Positions 9,227 through 64,000 of a DNA stretch of 64,000 bases are shown one piece after another. Every line of letters begins with the position of its first letter. Positions within the stretch are counted from its first letter, which is position 1. The DNA is taken from contig JAJGRE010000005.1 of NCBI GenBank assembly GCA_021083345.1, positions 1 to 64,000 of the forward strand, given 5' to 3'. Both the position numbers and the translations under genes were made by a program. Source of the DNA: Calditrichales bacterium MX18-03. GTDB lineage: Bacteria; Bacillota; Clostridia; Lutisporales; Lutisporaceae. The notes under the pieces are model-generated. The model was not told the origin of the DNA. It did no database searches and worked only from the letters and a program-made list of their open reading frames with translations.

Positions 9227-10558
9227 CTACCCTTCCAGCTTGTTTTTCATCTCTTCTATAAGGCTTCTCAGATTCGAATCGACTTTTATATCGGTTGATA
9301 CTTTTTCATGAGCATGCATGATGGTGGTATGATCCCTTCCGAATTCTTCTCCGATCCGAGGCAGAGAAAGGTCTGTCATCTCCCTGCAAAGATACATTGC
9401 AATTTGCCTGGGCATGACCACGGTACGGTTTCTCTTTTTTGCGTTAAAATCTTCTATTTTAATATGAAAGTATTGGCTTACGATGTCTTTGATGGCATTT
9501 GGCGTCAAAAGCTTGGGTCTGGTGCTGGATATGATATCCTTCAGGGCCTCTGTAGCCAGGTCTTCATTTATTTCCCCATTGGTCAGGGAGGAGTAAGCGA
9601 CGATGCGGATCAGTGCGCCTTCAAGCTCCCGTATATTGGATTGGATTTTTTTTGCAATTAATAGCATGACATTATCCGATATATTAATATTCTCTACCTT
9701 TGCTTTCTTCTTAAGGATAGCGATCCTGGTTTCCAAATCCGGCGGTGCGATGTCGGCTATAAGACCCTGCTCGAACCTTGAACGGAGACGGTCCTCAAGG
9801 GTGGGTATTTCTTTTGGCGGCCGGTCACTGGATATGATGATTTGTTTGTTTGCTTCATATAGGGAATTAAAGGTATGGAAAAACTCCTCCTGTGTTCTTT
9901 CTTTGCCGGCAATAAACTGAATGTCGTCAATCAGCAAAACATCAACGCTTCTGTATTTGCTTCGGAATTCGTTGTTTCTGTCGTCACGGATGGAGTTAAT
10001 GAGTTCGTTGGTAAAGGTCTCTGAAGAGATATAGACAACCTTTGCTTTTTTATTCTGCTTGAGTATATAATGCCCGATAGCATGCATCAGGTGTGTTTTT
10101 CCCAGTCCGACACCTCCATAAATAAAAAGAGGGTTGTAAGCCTTTGCAGGTGATTCAGCTACGGCGACGGAAGCGGCATGTGCCAGCCTGTTGCTGTTGC
10201 CGATTACAAAAGTATCGAATACATATTTTGGATTCAATGATGAGTTAACAGTTTCTTCGGGAGGCTGCTTATTGGAATCCTCACGCATCAGTGTTGAAAG
10301 GTTGTCCTCGGTGGGAATCACGAATTTGATGTCAAAATACTTCGAGGTAACCTGTTTCAGTGCGTTTTTGATCAGTGCGACATATCTTGTTTCCAAAATA
10401 CCCTTTGTAAAATCATCGGGCACAGAAAAGATAAAAACGCTGTCGTTGGCTGAAATAGGCTGGATTGCCTTAAGCCATGTATTAAAACTGACTTCTGTCA
10501 ATTCGACCTTTATGATGTCGAGGGTTTTGTCCCAGGCTTCTGAAATCTGAGGGTTCAT
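9227..10558 (-). CDS. dnaA: chromosomal replication initiator DnaA
   Basis: The 443-residue initiator protein that binds DnaA boxes and unwinds oriC. Domain I is N-terminal ([11 protein letters not shown]). The AAA+ module has Walker [12 protein letters not shown] near residue 150 and Walker [14 protein letters not shown], and domain IV carries the box-recognition signature [14 protein letters not shown]. An AAGGAGG Shine-Dalgarno precedes the ATG. DnaA boxes flank the gene on both sides, consistent with autoregulation. It is transcribed leftward, and rpmH is divergent across the origin. Confidence 0.99.
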
Positions 10559-45507: not shown

Positions 45508-45583
45508 GACTCACTAGCTCAGTCGGTAGAGCACATGACTTTTAATCATGGTGTCCGGAGTTCGATTCTCCGGTGAGTCACCA
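45508..45583 (+). tRNA. tRNA-Lys (UUU)
   Basis: A 76-base cloverleaf with CCA encoded. The acceptor GACTCAC pairs with GTGAGTC, the D arm contains AGCTCAGTCGGTAGAGC, the anticodon loop is CTTTTAA (anticodon TTT), and the T arm is GGAGTTCGATTCTCC. Confidence 0.97.
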
Positions 45584-45587
45584 TCAT

Positions 45588-45662
45588 GGCCCATTGGTCA
45601 AGCGGTTAAGACACCGCCCTTTCACGGCGGTAACAGGGGTTCGAGTCCCCTATGGGTCACCA
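45588..45662 (+). tRNA. tRNA-Glu (UUC)
   Basis: A 75-base cloverleaf with CCA encoded. The acceptor GGCCCAT pairs with ATGGGTC (one G-U pair), the anticodon loop is CTTTCAC (anticodon TTC), and the T arm is GGGGTTCGAGTCCCC. Confidence 0.97.
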
Positions 45663-45667
45663 TTTAT

Positions 45668-45743
45668 GGGGGCATAGCTCAGCTGGGAGAGCATCTGCCT
45701 TACAAGCAGAGGGTCATAGGTTCGAGCCCTATTGTCCCCACCA
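45668..45743 (+). tRNA. tRNA-Val (UAC)
   Basis: A 76-base cloverleaf with CCA encoded. The acceptor GGGGGCA pairs with TGTCCCC (one G-U pair), the anticodon loop is CTTACAA (anticodon TAC). Confidence 0.97.
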
Positions 45744-45751
45744 TTTACCCT

Positions 45752-45780
45752 TTGACAGGACGTCAAAAATATAATAAAAT
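45752..45780 (+). promoter_or_regulatory. possible internal promoter before tRNA-Asp
   Basis: TTGACA (45752-45757), a 17-base spacer and TAAAAT (45775-45780) in the 83-base gap between tRNA-Val and tRNA-Asp. It would let the last two tRNAs be transcribed separately. Confidence 0.55.
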
Positions 45781-45826
45781 AAATCTTGCCGCACAATGAT
45801 GCGCGAGCAAGGAAACACTTAAACAT

Positions 45827-45903
45827 GGCCCAGTAGTTCAGTTGGTTAGAATGCCAGCCTGTCACGCTGGAGGTCGACGGTTCGAGCCCGTTCTGGGTCG
45901 CCA
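45827..45903 (+). tRNA. tRNA-Asp (GUC)
   Basis: A 77-base cloverleaf with CCA encoded. The acceptor GGCCCAG pairs with CTGGGTC (one G-U pair), the anticodon loop is CTGTCAC (anticodon GTC), the discriminator is G. Confidence 0.97.
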
Positions 45904-45910
45904 TATTTAA

Positions 45911-45986
45911 GCTGGTGTAGCTCAATTGGTAGAGCAGCTGACTTGTAATCAGCAGGTCGCGGGTTCGAGTCCCATCACCAGCTCCA
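45911..45986 (+). tRNA. tRNA-Thr (UGU)
   Basis: A 76-base cloverleaf with CCA encoded. The acceptor GCTGGTG pairs with CACCAGC, the anticodon loop is CTTGTAA (anticodon TGT). Confidence 0.97.
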
Positions 45987-46122: not shown

Positions 46123-46163
46123 TTGTTATATTCAGTCAAAAATATGAATATTGATGCAATAAT

Positions 46164-46241
46164 AGTGTTGGATACTATGATGGATTTCTTTTATTTGGGC
46201 ACTTAGGGAAATTCGGAGTTAGCAGTGCAACCGGCCAATAT
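46164..46241 (+). ncRNA. c-di-GMP-II riboswitch aptamer
   Basis: The segment ATGATGGATTT (46178-46188) followed by TTTGGGCACTTAG (46194-46206), a variable hairpin, then GAGTTAGCAGTGCAACCGG (46216-46234) matches the conserved core of the c-di-GMP-II riboswitch as known from Clostridium. The closing P1 stem appears to be GTGTTGG (46165-46171) with CCAATA. The same CCAATA begins the terminator stem, so the two structures exclude each other. Ligand binding should therefore prevent termination and switch the chemoreceptor gene on. The family match is strong; the switch direction is inferred. Confidence 0.92.
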
Positions 46242-46291
46242 AAGATAAATAACGATTAAAGCGTTATTTATCTTATATTGGCTTTTTTATT
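46234..46291 (+). terminator. riboswitch expression-platform terminator
   Basis: A perfect 21-bp stem (46234-46254 with 46262-46282) with a seven-base loop, followed by TTTTTTATT. It begins inside the 3' strand of the riboswitch P1 stem and ends 64 bases before the chemoreceptor ATG. Confidence 0.93.
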
Positions 46292-56162: not shown

Positions 56163-57773
56163 ATGCTATTTATAAGGAAAATAACCGCATACACGCTGAT
56201 TGCCATTATTTCTATCTTGTCAATAATCTGCGCTAATGAAATCCATGCGGATCAGATATATCCTTTAGAAGCTGGAGAAGTACTTGTTGAAGAAAGAATA
56301 ATAAATGAGAACCATACAGAAATATTCACCCAGTTGAACGAAGATTACTATTTGAAGAAGCTCGAAAGAAGCAATGGCAATTGGATTATCGAGAGCACCA
56401 GAACCATCTATCCCAGGTGGACAGGCTTGGAAACAAAGAAAACTGACATGGTGGGGGACAAAAAGCTTGCCGCCGCTCTTGACAAGGAGCTGATGAGCTA
56501 TGGTTTGGGAGAAGCTTCACTGCCACCGGTAGTAGATTATTCAAATTCAGTCTTTTTACCACCGGCAGGGGATCAAAGATATCAGAACAGCTGCGTCGGA
56601 TGGGCTACGGGATATTACCTGAGAACCTACCAGCAAGCCCAGGATATGGGCTGGAAGGTAAAGGAGGACGGAGTAAGAATTGACAGCCACATATTCAGTC
56701 CTTCCTTTATCTATAATCAAATTAATAACGGGGTGGATAAGGGCTCACAAATCACAAGCGCCTGCAGCCTCCTAATGAATATAGGTGCAGCCACCCTGGC
56801 AGATTTTCCATATTATGCATCAGATTTCCGTACCCAGCCAAGTCCGGCAGTTGTCCAAAGCGCCTATCCCCATAGGGTCCGGAAGTGGACGTCGCTGTAT
56901 ACCTACAATGATTCAGCCCAAGACATCATAGATAAAATCAGGCAATATTTAAACACCGGCGATCTGGTGGTTGCCGGCAACCTGATCGGTTTCGAGTTTA
57001 TGTATCCTGCCCAAGATATATATGGAAACAGTATTATCACCAGGGAGTATGATACACGCTACAAGCATGCCTTTGTCGTATTGGGCTATGACGATAACTT
57101 CATCAGCTCAGACGGCTCGGGTGCCTTCAAAGTAGTCAGTTCTTGGGGAGAGGGATGGGGAAATAACGGCTTCAGTTATATCAGTTACAGCGCATTTGCT
57201 GCGAATGCATTAGAGGGCTTTGTATTTACAGACATGATAAATGAGGAAACACTGGAACTCGCAGTTGACATCAATGACGCCGTTACTTTTGATGTAGACT
57301 TTGATGGTACGGGCAGATACGATTTTAATATCCAGGATGAAAACGGGCAGTTGGTCTATGAAGAAAACAACCTGCGAGGGCAGTCAGGATCCAGCCGAAT
57401 TATATGGAATGGCAAGGATATGACAGGTAAAAATACTGCAGATGGCCATTATGTCCTCAATATCATTCCGTATAAATACAACACCCCTAAGCCAGCTTAC
57501 AAAGTTGCCTTCAACAAACTTGGAATGGTTGATAGTGCAAGCGCAAGAGCTTATATTTTTGAGGATGTTATACAATATGTGGATATACCCATTACCTCTA
57601 AAGTCGACGGCGTAGTAAATATAAAGGTTGATTACAATGGCACGGTGTATGAACTGATCTCAGGCCAGACTGTAGTGGCGGGTGTATCAAAAGTATTTAA
57701 AATACAAAAAAGTGATTTTGATTTCAATAATATAAATACAGACGAAGTTAAGCTAATAATTAACATTTTGTAA
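56163..57773 (+). CDS. secreted papain-like (C1A) cysteine protease
   Basis: A 536-residue exported protein with a signal peptide (about residues 1-30). The papain fold spans about 120-360: the oxyanion Gln and catalytic Cys are in DQRYQNSCVGWATGY (Cys about 144), the His is in YKHAFVVLGYD (about 302), and the third motif reads SSWGEGWGNNG, where papain has NSWG, so the catalytic Asn is replaced by Ser. A FlgD-like Ig domain and another beta domain follow. GAGGAGG precedes the ATG at 56163. The neighbouring S-layer-like protein is a candidate substrate, by analogy with clostridial surface proteases of this class. Confidence 0.88.
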   Translation: MLFIRKITAYTLIAIISILSIICANEIHADQIYPLEAGEVLVEERIINENHTEIFTQLNEDYYLKKLERSNGNWIIESTRTIYPRWTGLETKKTDMVGDKKLAAALDKELMSYGLGEASLPPVVDYSNSVFLPPAGDQRYQNSCVGWATGYYLRTYQQAQDMGWKVKEDGVRIDSHIFSPSFIYNQINNGVDKGSQITSACSLLMNIGAATLADFPYYASDFRTQPSPAVVQSAYPHRVRKWTSLYTYNDSAQDIIDKIRQYLNTGDLVVAGNLIGFEFMYPAQDIYGNSIITREYDTRYKHAFVVLGYDDNFISSDGSGAFKVVSSWGEGWGNNGFSYISYSAFAANALEGFVFTDMINEETLELAVDINDAVTFDVDFDGTGRYDFNIQDENGQLVYEENNLRGQSGSSRIIWNGKDMTGKNTADGHYVLNIIPYKYNTPKPAYKVAFNKLGMVDSASARAYIFEDVIQYVDIPITSKVDGVVNIKVDYNGTVYELISGQTVVAGVSKVFKIQKSDFDFNNINTDEVKLIINIL

Positions 57774-57974
57774 AGCAGCTATCTATGTACCTGCACGCCT
57801 TGAAGGTCTGAAATCATGGACTCTGGTCATACAAGAAATTTCCCACAAATAGGAACTGGACGCCGTTGCGCCTAACCATCCCGTTATGCTGAAACGCTAA
57901 TGGTCATGCCCTATGGGTAGAATCCAATGCCTTGGCGCTTGGCGGAATCGACATTGAATGAAATAGTCCGCTAA

Positions 57975-58006
57975 GCACCGGTACCTGATGGTATTGGTGC
58001 TTTTTT
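57975..58006 (+). terminator. terminator upstream of the sigma-54 activator
   Basis: GCACCGGTACC pairs with GGTATTGGTGC (two G-U pairs) around a TGAT loop, followed by six T residues. It lies 200 bases past the protease stop codon. Between them is gene-free sequence with a further imperfect stem (CTTGGCGGA / TCCGCTAAG). Confidence 0.85.
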
Positions 58007-58062
58007 CCTTGCTTGGTGATATAATGATGCTAACAGATTATGGGAGTCGGGAGGTGCAGGGC

Positions 58063-59907
58063 GTGGACAGGCAGGCAGGACTTTACGGGAAGATTATAGA
58101 CTCGGTCAATGAAGGCATCATTGCCATTGATGGAAACGGCGAAATCAAGTGCTACAACCGGAAAGCACGGGAAATCTTCGGCATCAGCAGCATCCAAGGT
58201 GTGGGGCATGCCAGTGGCAAACTGGAGGAAGGTGATATTGTCGTCATTGCGGACAACAGTTTGGGGACGGATGACGGCGGGCTGACCGCTGAGGATCTGC
58301 GCTGCATCGGCATCAGCACTTCGATTCCCCGCGGGAGTGCTTTTGTTGCAGTGGGCATTCTGGGCGGGGAGATGCAAGGCAGGATCGCTTATCTTGAGAA
58401 CCCGGAAGGTGCCGACAAGCTGCAGGAGCAGTGTGAAATAAAAGGGCACAAGCTTCGGGTTTGGATCGATCTGATGCAGCAAACGGCAATGATTGTCATA
58501 GATGGGCAAAGCTTTGCCTATTCCTTTTTGAAGAGCATCGGGCATATGGCGGCGGTCTGCGCGGAAACGGGCCGGATCAAATTCTACCAGTCTGCCGGCT
58601 ATACGGCCAGAAGGGAAGATATAAAAAGCCTGCTTCAGGGAAAGGCCTATCAGGCCAAAGGCGAGGGGGCCCTTGAAATGGATGTGCTGGGCAGGAGTAT
58701 TTTTGATGTACACCCCAGGGAATTCAATATCAACATCATCGAATTCCTGGAAGCGGCAAAAGGGAAGGAAATTGCCTACAGCAAAGAGGTTAAGGAAATC
58801 AACGGCTATCTGACGCGGTGCTCTCTTATTCTTGTAAGGGAGGAAGGCGAGGCTGCCGGCGCCATATTGAAGGTTGAGGATATTACCGAGCTCAAAAATG
58901 TGATTGAGGAGCGGGATAACGCCATTGCCGCGCTGAACGCCGTCAGGAGCAGGATGAAGCATTCGGAGGAGGATGCCTTTAAGGAAATAACAGGACAAAG
59001 CGAAAGCATCAGGATGGTGAAGCGACTAGCCGCAAAGGCCGCGGAATCCGACTCCACGGTGCTTCTTCTTGGAGAAAGCGGCACAGGAAAAGGTCTGGTG
59101 GCGGAATGCATCCATAAGAATGGAAAAAGGAAAAAAGGCCCCTTTATCTATGTGAATTGCGCTGCCATACCGGAAAACCTTTTGGAAAGCGAGTTTTTTG
59201 GTTATGAGGGCGGGGCCTTCACAGGTGCAAGAAAGGACGGAAAGGCAGGGCTATTCGAAGCGGCAGACGACGGGACGATTTTTCTCGATGAGATAGGGGA
59301 TATGCCGCCGTTCTTTCAGGTGAAGCTGCTGCATGTGTTGCAAAGCAGGAACATACGCCGCGTGGGCGGTATCAGGGACATTCGAACGGATGTCAGGATC
59401 ATAGCGGCAACCAATCGGGATCTGGAGGCTGCTGTGGCGGATGGGAGCTTCCGCAAAGACCTGTTTTACCGAATCAGTGTGTTTCCCATCTACATACCAC
59501 CACTGCGGTTGAGGAGGGAAGACATTTTTCTCCTGATACACGACTTGTTACCGAAGATATGCATCAGGGTGGGCTGCAATGAAAAAAGGATATCAGGAGA
59601 GGCCATACGCCTCTTGACGGACAAGGCCTGGTCCGGCAATGTCCGGGAGCTGGAGAATGCATTGGAGCGAGCCGTCAATATGGCAGAAGGTGGCATTCTG
59701 CTGAAGGAGCATTTCAACCTGAAGCAGGAAAGAGGAGTAAATCCTTCGTACTGTGGCGTAACTTTATCTGCCGTATTGGAGCAGGCAGAACGGAATGCCA
59801 TTGCAGAGGCCTTGCGCATTTCGGAGGGTAACAAAGCGGAGGCGATGAAGCTGCTGGATATCGGCAAGACAGGTTTTTATGAAAAATTAAAGAAATATCG
59901 GTTATAA
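58063..59907 (+). CDS. sigma-54-dependent transcriptional activator with PAS sensor
   Basis: A 614-residue enhancer-binding protein. The N-terminal PAS domain (SVNEGIIAIDGNGEIKCYN) is followed by an unusual stretch of about 150 residues and then PAS-like sequence ending in ILKVEDITELK. The AAA+ module has Walker A GESGTGKG (about residue 337), the sigma-54 contact loop GAFTGA (about 384) and Walker B GTIFLDEIGDM. A Fis-type HTH closes the protein. I choose GTG at 58063, after GGGAGG; the frame is open to 57988, upstream of a TATAAT at 58020. A consensus sigma-54 promoter lies just after it. Confidence 0.93.
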   Translation: MDRQAGLYGKIIDSVNEGIIAIDGNGEIKCYNRKAREIFGISSIQGVGHASGKLEEGDIVVIADNSLGTDDGGLTAEDLRCIGISTSIPRGSAFVAVGILGGEMQGRIAYLENPEGADKLQEQCEIKGHKLRVWIDLMQQTAMIVIDGQSFAYSFLKSIGHMAAVCAETGRIKFYQSAGYTARREDIKSLLQGKAYQAKGEGALEMDVLGRSIFDVHPREFNINIIEFLEAAKGKEIAYSKEVKEINGYLTRCSLILVREEGEAAGAILKVEDITELKNVIEERDNAIAALNAVRSRMKHSEEDAFKEITGQSESIRMVKRLAAKAAESDSTVLLLGESGTGKGLVAECIHKNGKRKKGPFIYVNCAAIPENLLESEFFGYEGGAFTGARKDGKAGLFEAADDGTIFLDEIGDMPPFFQVKLLHVLQSRNIRRVGGIRDIRTDVRIIAATNRDLEAAVADGSFRKDLFYRISVFPIYIPPLRLRREDIFLLIHDLLPKICIRVGCNEKRISGEAIRLLTDKAWSGNVRELENALERAVNMAEGGILLKEHFNLKQERGVNPSYCGVTLSAVLEQAERNAIAEALRISEGNKAEAMKLLDIGKTGFYEKLKKYRL

Positions 59908-59925
59908 TGGCCGCTGTTAAGGACT

Positions 59926-59942
59926 TTGGCACAGCTCTTGCA
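59926..59942 (+). promoter_or_regulatory. sigma-54 (-24/-12) promoter of lysA
   Basis: TTGGCACAGCTCTTGCA matches the sigma-54 consensus TGGCAC-N5-TTGCA. The invariant GG (59928-59929) and GC (59940-59941) are separated by exactly ten bases. It lies between the activator's stop codon and lysA, 42 bases upstream of the lysA start codon. Confidence 0.92.
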
Positions 59943-59983
59943 CTCTATTTTTACAAAGAAGCAAAAATGGGAGGCAGAAGAAA

Positions 59984-61273
59984 ATGCGAAAGGAGCTAAC
60001 GATCAATGCCCTTGGACATCTTGTCCACGGCGGCTGTGATACGGTAGAGCTGGCTCAGGAATTTGGAACGCCGCTTTATGTGCTGGATGAGGGGGATATA
60101 AGGGCCCGCTGCAAGTATGTACGCAAGCATTTTATGGATAAATACCCTGATACCCTGGCTTTATATGCCAGCAAAGCTTTCAGCAGCATAGCCATGTACC
60201 GCATTATCAAAGAAGAGGGACTGGGCTTGGATGTGGTGTCGGGGGGAGAGCTTTATACAGCGATCAAAGCAGATTTTCCTATGGAAAAGGTGTATTTCCA
60301 CGGAAATAACAAAACCATGGAGGAGATTGCGCTTGCTATCGATAACAGCATAGGCTGCTTTGTCATTGATAATGTATACGAAATGCGCTGTATCCAGAAG
60401 CTGGCGCAGGAAAAGGGAAAAGTAGTGAAGGCGCTTCTCCGCATAACGCCGGGCGTCTCGGGAAATACGCACCGTTACATGTCTACAGGGCAGACGGATT
60501 CAAAATTCGGTTTTCACCTTAATGCAGGGATGGTTGAGCCTGCCGTAGAAGAAATCCTGCAGTGTGGCAACATTCATTTTGCAGGGATCCACTGCCATAT
60601 CGGTTCGCAAATGTACGACAGAGAAGTATACCGTGATACCGCCGGCCGGATGACGGGTCTCATGAGAACCATTAAGCGGGACTTTGGCATAGAGATTGAA
60701 GAGCTTAATATGGGAGGCGGCTTTGCGGTTTATGATATGAAGGAAGACAGACATATTGATATCGTGGCGTATATTGAGACAATCATGGAGGCTGTTTCTG
60801 AAAACTGCCGGGCGCTGGATCTGAAGCTTCCGAGGTTATTGATCGAGCCAGGCAGATGGCTTGCGGCAGAATCAGGGATAACGCTTTATACAATAGGCTC
60901 GGTAAAGTCCATCAACGGCGTCCGGAAGTATGTCAGTGTCGACGGAGGAATGACAGACAACCCGAGGCACGCCTTATATCAGGCGAATTATCAGGCTGTC
61001 ATTGCAAACAGGGCAAAGGAACCGGAGACGGAGACGGTGACAATAGCGGGCAGATGTTGTGAATCCGGGGATATTTTGATACCGGAGATACAACTGCCGG
61101 AAGCGCAGCCGGGCGATATACTGGCTGTGCTGACAACAGGCGCTTACAACTACTCAATGGCCAGCAACTACAACAGGCTCAGGAAGCCGGCGCTGGTCAT
61201 GATCAAGGACGGGGTGCCGCGGATAGCAATCAAGCGGGAGTCTTACGAAGACCTGGTACGGAACGAGCAATGA
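59984..61273 (+). CDS. lysA: diaminopimelate decarboxylase
   Basis: A 429-residue PLP enzyme that decarboxylates meso-diaminopimelate to lysine. The PLP lysine is in ALYASKAFSS, the HCHIGSQ and NMGGGFAVY motifs bind PLP, EPGRWLAAE follows, and GRCCESGDIL carries the active-site cysteine expected in true DapDC, with GAYNYSMASNYN near the end. GGGAGG precedes the ATG. It has its own sigma-54 promoter and no other lysine gene beside it, which is unusual. Related decarboxylases exist, but the motifs favour DapDC. Confidence 0.95.
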   Translation: MRKELTINALGHLVHGGCDTVELAQEFGTPLYVLDEGDIRARCKYVRKHFMDKYPDTLALYASKAFSSIAMYRIIKEEGLGLDVVSGGELYTAIKADFPMEKVYFHGNNKTMEEIALAIDNSIGCFVIDNVYEMRCIQKLAQEKGKVVKALLRITPGVSGNTHRYMSTGQTDSKFGFHLNAGMVEPAVEEILQCGNIHFAGIHCHIGSQMYDREVYRDTAGRMTGLMRTIKRDFGIEIEELNMGGGFAVYDMKEDRHIDIVAYIETIMEAVSENCRALDLKLPRLLIEPGRWLAAESGITLYTIGSVKSINGVRKYVSVDGGMTDNPRHALYQANYQAVIANRAKEPETETVTIAGRCCESGDILIPEIQLPEAQPGDILAVLTTGAYNYSMASNYNRLRKPALVMIKDGVPRIAIKRESYEDLVRNEQ

Positions 61274-61492
61274 TTCCAGATAACCGGAATCGGTTCGGAA
61301 AAGCGGACGAATACAAACGATAATGGATTACGAGCTTCGTAAATAGCGTTCGGTTTTGCGGAATAACTGCTTTACAGCTTGCATATCTATAATATATAAA
61401 TCAAAAATTTGAACACTTATGTTAGAGCGAGTTCTGGCATAATGATTTGAATTTGAAGATTTGCTGCGTCATTTATCTTTCGTAGATGAAAT

Positions 61493-61529
61493 TCGGCAGA
61501 AGGGCTTGCCCTTTTTTGCCGATTTTTTT
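61493..61529. terminator. terminator between lysA and the DUF3870 gene
   Basis: TCGGCA...AGGGC pairs with GCCCT...TGCCGA around a TT loop, followed by seven T residues. The 220 bases between lysA and this hairpin hold no supported gene. Confidence 0.82.
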
Positions 61530-61545
61530 ATTTGTGCTATGACGG

Positions 61546-61884
61546 CTACAGCTCGATAGGCTTACCGCTTTTAAAATCCAGGTATTTCTTTTGAGCGTCC
61601 TTAAATGCCACAAGAATGGCTTTTTGCGAAGATCCGAGATAGCACCCGATAATGTTGTTTCGTATGGATTCAAAGTCGGATACCATATTTTTCCCGATAA
61701 AAAAGTCTTCAATGAATTTATTGGTAAGTGCTAAGATTGCGTTACTTTCAACCTCAATAATATTACCGGTCTGACTGTCTACGAGGAAACCCATCATAAA
61801 CTGGCCGTAAAGCTGTGTGATAGGATTGTTCTGCTGTGATTTGGAGTTGCCAACGATATACAATGTACTTTCAGGATAATTCAT
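61546..61884 (-). CDS. DUF3870 domain protein
   Basis: A 112-residue protein matching DUF3870: TLYIVGNSKSQQNNPITQLYGQFMMGFLVDSQTGNIIEVE, then FIEDFFIGKNM and IRNNIIGCYLGSSQKAILVAF. The family is found near amino-acid and hydantoin metabolism genes in Clostridia, but its role is not known. GGGGG precedes the ATG. It is divergent from the hydrolase/epimerase pair. Confidence 0.87.
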   Translation of the reverse strand: MNYPESTLYIVGNSKSQQNNPITQLYGQFMMGFLVDSQTGNIIEVESNAILALTNKFIEDFFIGKNMVSDFESIRNNIIGCYLGSSQKAILVAFKDAQKKYLDFKSGKPIEL

Positions 61885-62009
61885 TGGAATTCCCCCTAAA
61901 GAGTGATATTTAAAAATAAAATATCATATGGCGGCTGAATTGTAAAATAGAATTTGCCTATATAGATACCTATACCATGTAGCATTTGGTTTTGAGAGGA
62001 GTAATGAAG

Positions 62010-62798
62010 ATGCTTGGTAAGCTAATCGACCAGGAATTGGAATTCATGGACGGCTGTTTTTCTATTATCCTAAAGGATTTGACAAAGAATGAAGTGCTTT
62101 ACGCCAGAGATCTGGATAGACAGCTGCCGTCAGCCAGTACCATCAAGGTTTTGATTATGGTGGAGGCCTTCAGGAGGATGCTCAAGGGATGCCTGGACAT
62201 GAAGGAAAAGCTTCGGGTAAAAAAGGAAGACAAGGTCTCATTCAGTCTGATTACTGAAATGAAAGAGGAAGAATACGCGATAGGGGACCTGATTACACTG
62301 ATGATGACCATAAGTGATAATACAGCTGCAAACCTTTTGATTGACAGGCTGGGTATGGATCCAATCAATGAGACTGCCTGGTCCATAGGGTTATCAAATA
62401 CCGCTTTGAGAAGAAAAATGATGGACTTGGATGCCGTGAAAGCGGGCAGGCAAAACATGACCTCACCTAAGGATATGCAGCTGATTTTTGAGAAGCTGTA
62501 TAGGAATGCGATCCTGACACCGGACGCATGCCGTGAAATGCTAGATATCATGAGTATTGTCATTCGGAAAGACGGTCTGATAAGGGACCTTCCTGTTGAG
62601 GTCAGGGTTGCCCGGAAAACGGGTGAATTGGACAATCTGAATCATGATATCGGAATCTTCTTTATGGGAAGCGTAGATTATCTGCTGGGGGTATTTGCAA
62701 CAGGCTTAAAAGATAATGTCGAAGGCAGTGAATACATAGCCCGGTTGTCAAAGATCATTTTCAGTCATCTGACTGAGGTCAAGGAGGAAACAGAATGA
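62010..62798 (+). CDS. class-A beta-lactamase-like serine hydrolase, apparently cytosolic
   Basis: A 262-residue protein of the serine beta-lactamase/DD-peptidase fold. The three active-site motifs are present: S-T-I-K within PSASTIKVLIMVEAF, S-D-N in MTISDNTAANLL, and K-T-G in VARKTGELDN. There is no signal peptide or membrane segment, so the enzyme should be cytosolic, unlike true beta-lactamases. Its gene overlaps the dipeptide epimerase start by four bases, which suggests a role in hydrolysing small peptides or amides from murein turnover. The ATG at 62010 follows GAGAGGAG at eight bases. Confidence 0.85.
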   Translation: MLGKLIDQELEFMDGCFSIILKDLTKNEVLYARDLDRQLPSASTIKVLIMVEAFRRMLKGCLDMKEKLRVKKEDKVSFSLITEMKEEEYAIGDLITLMMTISDNTAANLLIDRLGMDPINETAWSIGLSNTALRRKMMDLDAVKAGRQNMTSPKDMQLIFEKLYRNAILTPDACREMLDIMSIVIRKDGLIRDLPVEVRVARKTGELDNLNHDIGIFFMGSVDYLLGVFATGLKDNVEGSEYIARLSKIIFSHLTEVKEETE

Positions 62799-63871
62799 GA
62801 ATAACCCATATTGAGACAAGAATACTCAGTACACCCTTAAAAAAGCCGTTTAAGACCGCTTTAAGAGAATTGCGCATTGCAGAAAACCTAATCGTAATGC
62901 TTCATGGAGACGATGGTCAGATCGGTTATGGAGGTGCTCCGCCGACGGCAGTCATTACAGGCGATACACTGGAATCGGTCCAAGGGGCTATCGATAAGTC
63001 TATCGTACCTGCCATCCGGGGAATGGACATCGAAGAGCTGGAGGTCATTTTGAAATGCCTGGACACTGCCATTCATAAAAACACCAGCGCCAAGGCGGCA
63101 GTAGATATCGCACTTTATGACCTGTTCGGCAAGCATTTCAAATTGCCGCTGTATAAGCTGTTCGGGGGGGCAAGAAAACAGATTGAGTCTGATATTACAG
63201 TTAGCGTGAATCCCCCGGAGGAGATGGCAGCAGATGCATTATCTTACGTACAGGAAGGGTATACGACCTTGAAGACCAAGGTGGGACTGGATAGTGCATT
63301 GGATATTGTCAGGGTCAAGGCTATAAGGGAAGCGGTGGGTGGCAGGGTCAAAATCAGGCTGGATGCCAATCAGGGCTGGGGTGCAAAGGAGGCAGTAAGG
63401 ACCATAAGGAAGATTGAGGACATGGGGCTGGATATCGAGCTGATCGAGCAGCCGGTCAAAGCTTATGACATTGAAGGCCTGAAGTATGTAACAGAGCACG
63501 TGGATACACCGGTTATGGCAGACGAGTCCTTGTTCTCAACGGCGGATTGCTTTCAGATTCTAAAGCTGAGGGCAGCCGATATATTCAATATCAAGCTGAT
63601 GAAAAGCGGCGGACTGCACCATGCCTTGACAATCAACGCCATGGCTGAGAGCTGCGGCGTAGAGTGCATGATTGGCTCTATGATTGAAAGTAAAATTGGA
63701 ATCACGGCAGCTGCACATTTTGGATGTGGAAAGTTGAATATAACCAGAGCCGATCTGGATGCTGTATTCTTGATGGCGGAAGACCCGGTTGAAGGCGGCG
63801 TTCAGGTTAACGGCAGTTCGCTGGTTATGCCGGAAGGCTTTGGGCTCGGTATTATCGGACTGAAAGCATAG
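62795..63871 (+). CDS. dipeptide epimerase (enolase superfamily, L-Ala-D/L-Glu type)
   Basis: A 358-residue enzyme of the muconate-lactonizing subgroup. The KxK catalytic pair is in TTLKTKVGLD, the metal ligands are in IRLDANQGW, ELIEQPV and VMADESLFS, and the second lysine is in FNIKLMKSGG. Family members interconvert L-Ala-D-Glu and L-Ala-L-Glu from peptidoglycan recycling, though some act on other dipeptides. The start codon overlaps the hydrolase stop (ATGA). The next ORF follows by 12 bases. Confidence 0.92.
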   Translation: MRITHIETRILSTPLKKPFKTALRELRIAENLIVMLHGDDGQIGYGGAPPTAVITGDTLESVQGAIDKSIVPAIRGMDIEELEVILKCLDTAIHKNTSAKAAVDIALYDLFGKHFKLPLYKLFGGARKQIESDITVSVNPPEEMAADALSYVQEGYTTLKTKVGLDSALDIVRVKAIREAVGGRVKIRLDANQGWGAKEAVRTIRKIEDMGLDIELIEQPVKAYDIEGLKYVTEHVDTPVMADESLFSTADCFQILKLRAADIFNIKLMKSGGLHHALTINAMAESCGVECMIGSMIESKIGITAAAHFGCGKLNITRADLDAVFLMAEDPVEGGVQVNGSSLVMPEGFGLGIIGLKA

Positions 63872-63883
63872 GAGGTGGAAAGG

Positions 63884-64000
63884 ATGGAATCTGTTATGCC
63901 CGAAAAAGGGCTTGTCATTAAGAATGTGGGATCCATAAAGCTGAACCCATGTATGGAAAGCGAGGTTGCCGATGAGGTGCTTCACGGCATGGTGTTGGAG
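63884..64000 (+). CDS. truncated ORF at the window edge, function unknown
   Basis: The first 39 codons of an ORF that continues past the window, starting at ATG after GGAGGTGGAAAGG. It begins MESVMPEKGLVIKNVGSIKL and continues with an acidic stretch. I do not recognise it. The 12-base spacing suggests it belongs to the hydrolase/epimerase operon. Confidence 0.75.
   Translation, partial: MESVMPEKGLVIKNVGSIKLNPCMESEVADEVLHGMVLE

Follow-up and report, generated by a model that had tools for sequence, protein, structure and literature searches.

A probable sigma-54 regulon for muropeptide catabolism that includes a second diaminopimelate decarboxylase gene in a Lutisporaceae genome

Analysis of a 64,000-nucleotide stretch of clostridial DNA (hereafter the window) points, with good confidence, to a sigma-54 regulon that governs muropeptide catabolism. 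Within it, the product of the lysA2 gene would turn released diaminopimelate into lysine, which probably goes to fermentation. Because lysA2 is a second lysA copy that is placed under sigma-54 and its own activator and that lies among genes for the uptake and breakdown of cell-wall peptides, its probable use to these anaerobes is in feeding on bacterial cell walls and not in making lysine. The promoter and its conservation, the binding-site motif of the activator, the gene neighbourhood, the clade of LysA, rpoN and lysine 5,6-aminomutase were all computed directly. The features of the locus are listed in Table 1.

Judged by its conservation, the sigma-54 site before lysA2 is real and no accident, since it is kept in all direct pairs of an enhancer-binding protein (EBP) gene and lysA and is absent before lysA genes that have no EBP. 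The GG and GC dinucleotides of TGGCACAGCTCTTGCA stand at canonical spacing in the form TGGCAY-N5-TTGCW, and 42 bases separate the end of the site from the lysA ATG at 59984, which confirms what the initial annotation had described; the inferred transcription start lies near 59953. The pattern TGGCACN5TTGCW has a single exact match in the window, namely the lysA2 site, and a matrix scan of the window also places this site at the top with 15.8 bits versus 10.7 for the runner-up, using a matrix built from 27 sites that are mostly from relatives and that include the window site. A one-mismatch pattern search of the window is not significant alone (2 found versus 2.9 expected). Genome-wide, the exact pattern has 20 matches compared with 4 for a reversed control pattern, and rpoN, without which the sigma-54 reading would fall, is present in one copy. 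Across Clostridia, a -24/-12 site with intact GG/GC and at most two mismatches is found in 17/17 direct EBP-lysA pairs, window included, these pairs being related by descent and hence not to be counted as 17 independent events; the same holds for 0.46% of shuffled EBP-lysA gaps. Relatives with the pair do not show the loss of the -24/-12 elements that had been named as contrary evidence. The distance from the site to lysA is 36-76 bp in the direct pairs with the exception of one locus, where lysA was called with a start upstream of the sigma-54 site, probably in error. A sigma-54 site is absent in front of all 16 lysA genes that lack an EBP, while five of the nine lysA genes located elsewhere in EBP loci, outside a direct pair, have one. 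The consensus of the relatives' -24/-12 sites, AATTGGCATGATTATTGCTTTAT, agrees with the clostridial sigma-54 consensus TTGGCATNNNNNTTGCT that is published in PMC6615313. In Geosporobacter subterraneus the lysA behind the sigma-54 site is split in two frames (L094:12051-13429).

Table 1. Features of the lysA2 locus, with copies of the leader RNA in relatives
Feature	Position	Strand	Details
Sigma-54 activator (EBP)	58063..59907	+	AAA+ with GAFTGA, HTH_8, two PAS segments, beta-rich region between them
-24/-12 promoter TGGCACAGCTCTTGCA	59927..59942	+	Consensus match, matrix score, conservation in relatives
lysA2, diaminopimelate decarboxylase, EBP/muropeptide-linked clade	59984..61273	+	TIGR01048 448.8 bits, cut-off 297.9
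Putative activator-binding site 1, core TTCCAGATAACCGGAA	61272..61291	+	17.7 bits, best of window; overlaps lysA2 stop codon
Putative activator-binding site 2, core GTTCGGAAAAGCGGAC	61291..61310	+	15.9 bits; 19 bp from site 1
Putative activator-binding site 3, core GTTCGGTTTTGCGGAA	61346..61365	+	15.6 bits
Conserved structured leader RNA	61407..61533	+	Hairpin P1, then P2 (TGYYG...CGGCA) competing with terminator
Intrinsic terminator at leader RNA end	61493..61522	+	
DUF3870 gene	61546..61884	-	Adjoins leader and beta-lactamase-like gene, in relatives too
Class A beta-lactamase-like serine hydrolase (Beta-lactamase2)	61986..62798	+	
Enolase-superfamily epimerase	62795..63871	+	Best NCBIfam model L-Ala-D/L-Glu epimerase
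SH3-NlpC/P60 peptidase gene, start only	63875..64000	+	
Leader copies in relatives	L054:3960-4085; L055:15723-15848 and 9341-9500 (-); L058:226-351; L130-L134		

By its domain content, the protein encoded upstream of lysA2 is a true bacterial enhancer-binding protein. A sigma-54 AAA+ domain, Walker A, GAFTGA, HTH_8 and PAS segments were all detected, so that the intact GAFTGA activator noted just upstream of lysA is borne out by domain and motif searches. Its start codon is uncertain, with the frame open from an ATG at 57988. Its N-terminal 306 residues, modelled with AlphaFold (mean pLDDT 74), resemble PAS domains and find their best structural match in the cytoplasmic PAS domain of CitA; the fold search of this sensor returned the PAS match alone, pointing to no ligand. 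Assignment of the protein as PrdR was rejected, as it scores 398.8 bits against NCBIfam NF041552, for which the equivalog cut-off is 795. The EBP gene is preceded by about 220 gene-free bases (57780-58002) with a strong terminator at their end (57973-58002), and an Rfam search of 57770-58062 gave no RNA match. Synteny of the activator-lysA pair, a comparison that the initial annotation had called for, is conserved, with the 17 direct pairs spread across Clostridia. For example, seven of the eight EBP matches in the Lutispora family directly precede a lysA, and the remaining one follows a lysA-dapF-symporter group. A scan with the sensor region over 84,980 species (one genome each) yielded 40 EBP loci in Lutispora, Alkaliphilus, Natronincola, Anaerovirgula, Geosporobacter, Sedimentibacter, Tissierella, Anaerosalibacter and others; some of these loci repeat genomes already present in the family search. 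Four family members retain lysA2 in a muropeptide operon that has neither an EBP nor a sigma-54 site.

The genes that surround the activator are of types that represent the stages of muropeptide breakdown established for ykfABCD (PMC3305447). Beyond the window, the cluster continues with an M55 D-aminopeptidase, an amidohydrolase (D-aminoacylase-like), an Opp ABC transporter, DUF4438 and a second M55. The epimerase scores 259.5 bits against NF041118 (L-Ala-D/L-Glu epimerase, ykfB type), below the equivalog cut-off of 500, so its substrate is presumed. At least one cell-wall peptide gene occurs within 10 kb in 38 of the 40 EBP loci, where the genes counted were lysA itself, epimerase, S66 LD-carboxypeptidase, NlpC/P60, D-aminopeptidase, alanine racemase and Opp. 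Counts over the 40 loci are 23 for lysA, 20 for a peptide-binding protein, 19 for epimerase, 12 for S66 LD-carboxypeptidase, 10 and 8 for NlpC/P60 types and 5 for alanine racemase. The window cluster shares the epimerase, an NlpC/P60-type peptidase and peptide transport with the Bacillus subtilis ykfABCD operon, as well as the S66 carboxypeptidase in relatives, but it differs in its link to lysA, D-aminopeptidases and a sigma-54 activator, and no S66 carboxypeptidase was found in the cluster of this genome. In most of the family members seen, the DUF3870 gene stands beside the leader RNA and is encoded on the opposite strand; it is perhaps a cluster regulator.

The predicted binding site of the activator is likely TTCCG-N6-CGGAA. 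An expectation-maximisation search that was seeded with this motif and run on 26 EBP-linked promoter regions of relatives, with the window excluded from training, found it in 25/26 regions, whereas at 9 bits about 2% of the regions had a match once they were shuffled; the seed was drawn from k-mers enriched in those same 26 regions, so the motif is partly fitted to them. That fit does not affect two further tests. First, the three best matches in the 64 kb of the window all fall within 94 bp right after the lysA2 stop codon, where they form a 19-bp pair plus a third site, the same arrangement as in relatives. Second, the top matches in other loci are found some 80-170 bp upstream of the sigma-54 sites of lysA and of uptake or epimerase genes that do not adjoin the EBP. 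At loci without an EBP, motif scores peak at 9-14 bits. The genome-wide search for the motif used an IUPAC pattern rather than the matrix and, among the matches listed, a pair at C8:219789-219855 was set aside as it falls inside the coding sequence of a different activator. The nearest motif in most relatives is about 30-80 bp upstream of -24, whereas in the window the sites occur only about 1.3 kb downstream of the lysA2 promoter. The search for an upstream site of the activator, as had been suggested, gave putative sites before the promoters of relatives and, in the window, behind lysA2. This move is unusual and weighs against the regulon reading.

The cluster behind lysA2 is apparently a candidate downstream enhancer by analogy with B. 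subtilis rocG, which requires a RocR site 1.5 kb downstream (PMC4941409). Both the rocG-rocABC system (RocR, sigma-L) and the window pair a sigma-54 promoter with activator sites that follow the gene, at 1.5 kb and 1.3 kb respectively, but the activator, motif and pathway differ, and no second canonical -24/-12 follows the sites in the window. It is unlikely, in our estimate, that the cluster serves a promoter of the leader RNA and peptide operon and that lysA2 is regulated otherwise or not at all, even though this would agree with the place of the nearest site in most relatives and with the presence of a TGGCAT (61435) roughly 70 bp beyond the third site. That TGGCAT was rejected as a second or relic -24, as it has no GC at -12, scores 0.2 bits versus 15.8 for the lysA2 site and constitutes a base-paired arm of the leader RNA, namely the 3' arm of hairpin P1. 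The sites could also serve the next transcription unit, or both lysA2 and that unit, as in the rocG-rocABC region (PMC4941409).

The leader RNA lies between the putative activator sites and DUF3870, and its terminator, which separates lysA2 from the peptide genes, makes a single transcript doubtful. Ten leader copies point to a structure in which P1 covaries, with all 10 pairs changed on both sides, and the P2 helix TGYYG/CGGCA competes with the terminator stem. Structure measures of the leader beat shuffles (0/500 for four of five measures) as well as slid controls, although the alignment was fitted to the model and the values are consequently inflated. Relatives of the leader stand directly before the opp-lysA2 operon in three genomes, before beta-lactamase-like or NlpC genes in a further set (the second copy of G006, and G015, G016, G017, G019 and G021) and before a beta-lactamase-like gene in G020. 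Rfam gave no match for 61407-61533, and a strict-filter search of 391 genomes of the class found just two weak matches outside the family (L141 and L142). Both were discarded, each being at the start of a REP-type transposase-like ORF (by eye) with no muropeptide gene near, as were weak matches in L135 and L136, which have no muropeptide gene and match mostly the terminator. The leader is a possible attenuator or riboswitch; that it represents a new class of ligand-sensing riboswitch (or a protein-bound attenuator) for cell-wall peptide catabolism is a tentative and somewhat doubtful idea, under which the muropeptide genes would have two layers of control, the sigma-54 activator and an RNA. 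Elsewhere in the window, a cyclic di-GMP-II riboswitch occurs at 46161-46245, shortly after a tRNA cluster (45508-45983).

Based on model score and catalytic motifs (YASKA, HIGSQ, EPGR and CESGD are intact), the lysA2 product qualifies as the diaminopimelate decarboxylase LysA. A second lysA, of the housekeeping clade, is present on another contig and lacks a preceding sigma-54 site. A phylogeny of 41 LysA proteins separates nine housekeeping proteins, including the second LysA of this genome, from all EBP-linked and muropeptide-operon LysAs with split support of 100/99, and three unlinked family proteins group with the EBP/muropeptide side. No lysine riboswitch (RF00168) was found before lysA2, and the sole match in the genome precedes asd-dapA-dapB-dapD-lysC (gene names by eye from translations). 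The genome also encodes a full-length alpha subunit of D-lysine 5,6-aminomutase (917 bits), which makes lysine fermentation plausible. Given the housekeeping lysA, the riboswitch before the asd-dap operon and the aminomutase, LysA2 most likely serves catabolism, with diaminopimelate from cell-wall peptides being converted to lysine for fermentation.

The initial annotation had seen in this promoter a sigma-54 switch on either lysine formation or the use of diaminopimelate. The latter gains from the cell-wall peptide neighbours. Control of lysine biosynthesis by sigma-54, with lysA as the last step and an unknown signal, is now quite improbable. LysA does yield lysine from any source, and in some other Lutispora genomes, several of which are incomplete drafts, the EBP-linked sigma-54 lysA is the sole one found and dapB is present (L073, L075 and L076 have this combination), so that the gene may have a double role there. 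In the genome under study, however, lysine biosynthesis has a separate housekeeping lysA and a riboswitch-led operon elsewhere, and the lysA2 cluster contains no other biosynthetic gene and instead contains cell-wall peptide genes, as do 38/40 EBP loci. That lysA2 is transcribed mainly from a sigma-A-like promoter (ATGAAA-N18-TATAAT, 59879-59908, 10/12 matches), with the -24/-12 silent or fortuitous, is very unlikely, as these hexamers lie inside the coding end of the activator, such matches are common in the stretch (10 found versus 6.9 expected at >=9/12) and the sigma-54 site is retained in all direct pairs.

For the favoured regulon of muropeptide catabolism we infer the enzyme substrates, the flow from diaminopimelate to lysine and into fermentation, and the action of a downstream enhancer. 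The activator would bind paired TTCCG-N6-CGGAA sites and, upon a signal at its PAS-type sensor that is probably a muropeptide, diaminopimelate or a related metabolite, would drive sigma-54 RNA polymerase at the -24/-12 promoters of lysA and of operons for peptide transport and for peptidases. Within the window, the sites downstream of the lysA2 promoter would act by DNA looping, like the B. subtilis rocG enhancer. LysA2 would then decarboxylate meso-diaminopimelate from imported peptides to L-lysine, which would enter lysine fermentation. Counted against this regulon are the epimerase score under its cut-off, the four EBP-less lysA2 operons, the sigma-A-like promoter, the terminator and the Lutispora genomes with a single lysA.

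Comparable arrangements are described for the clostridial sigma-54/EBP regulons of PrdR, OrdR and XcyR (PMC6615313), in which the EBP likewise resides beside its target, UAS motifs are EBP-specific and targets are catabolic. The clostridial EBP regulons for amino-acid and peptide catabolism in that study also share with the window locus the -24/-12 consensus TTGGCATN5TTGCT. The main text of PMC6615313 does not mention lysA, murein, peptidoglycan, epimerase or diaminopimelate, and its table of 39 EBP groups contains no such target. Our literature search found nothing that pairs sigma-54 with muropeptide, or diaminopimelate decarboxylase with sigma-54.

If the proposed regulon is true, a textbook biosynthetic enzyme would be reassigned to a catabolic role in peptide-fermenting anaerobes, and bacteria that feed on dead cell walls would have a testable sigma-54 regulon. 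The binding motif would then allow this regulon to be mapped across many Clostridia. Furthermore, the leader is a candidate new regulatory RNA, and the sensor of the EBP may be a natural detector for muropeptides or for diaminopimelate.
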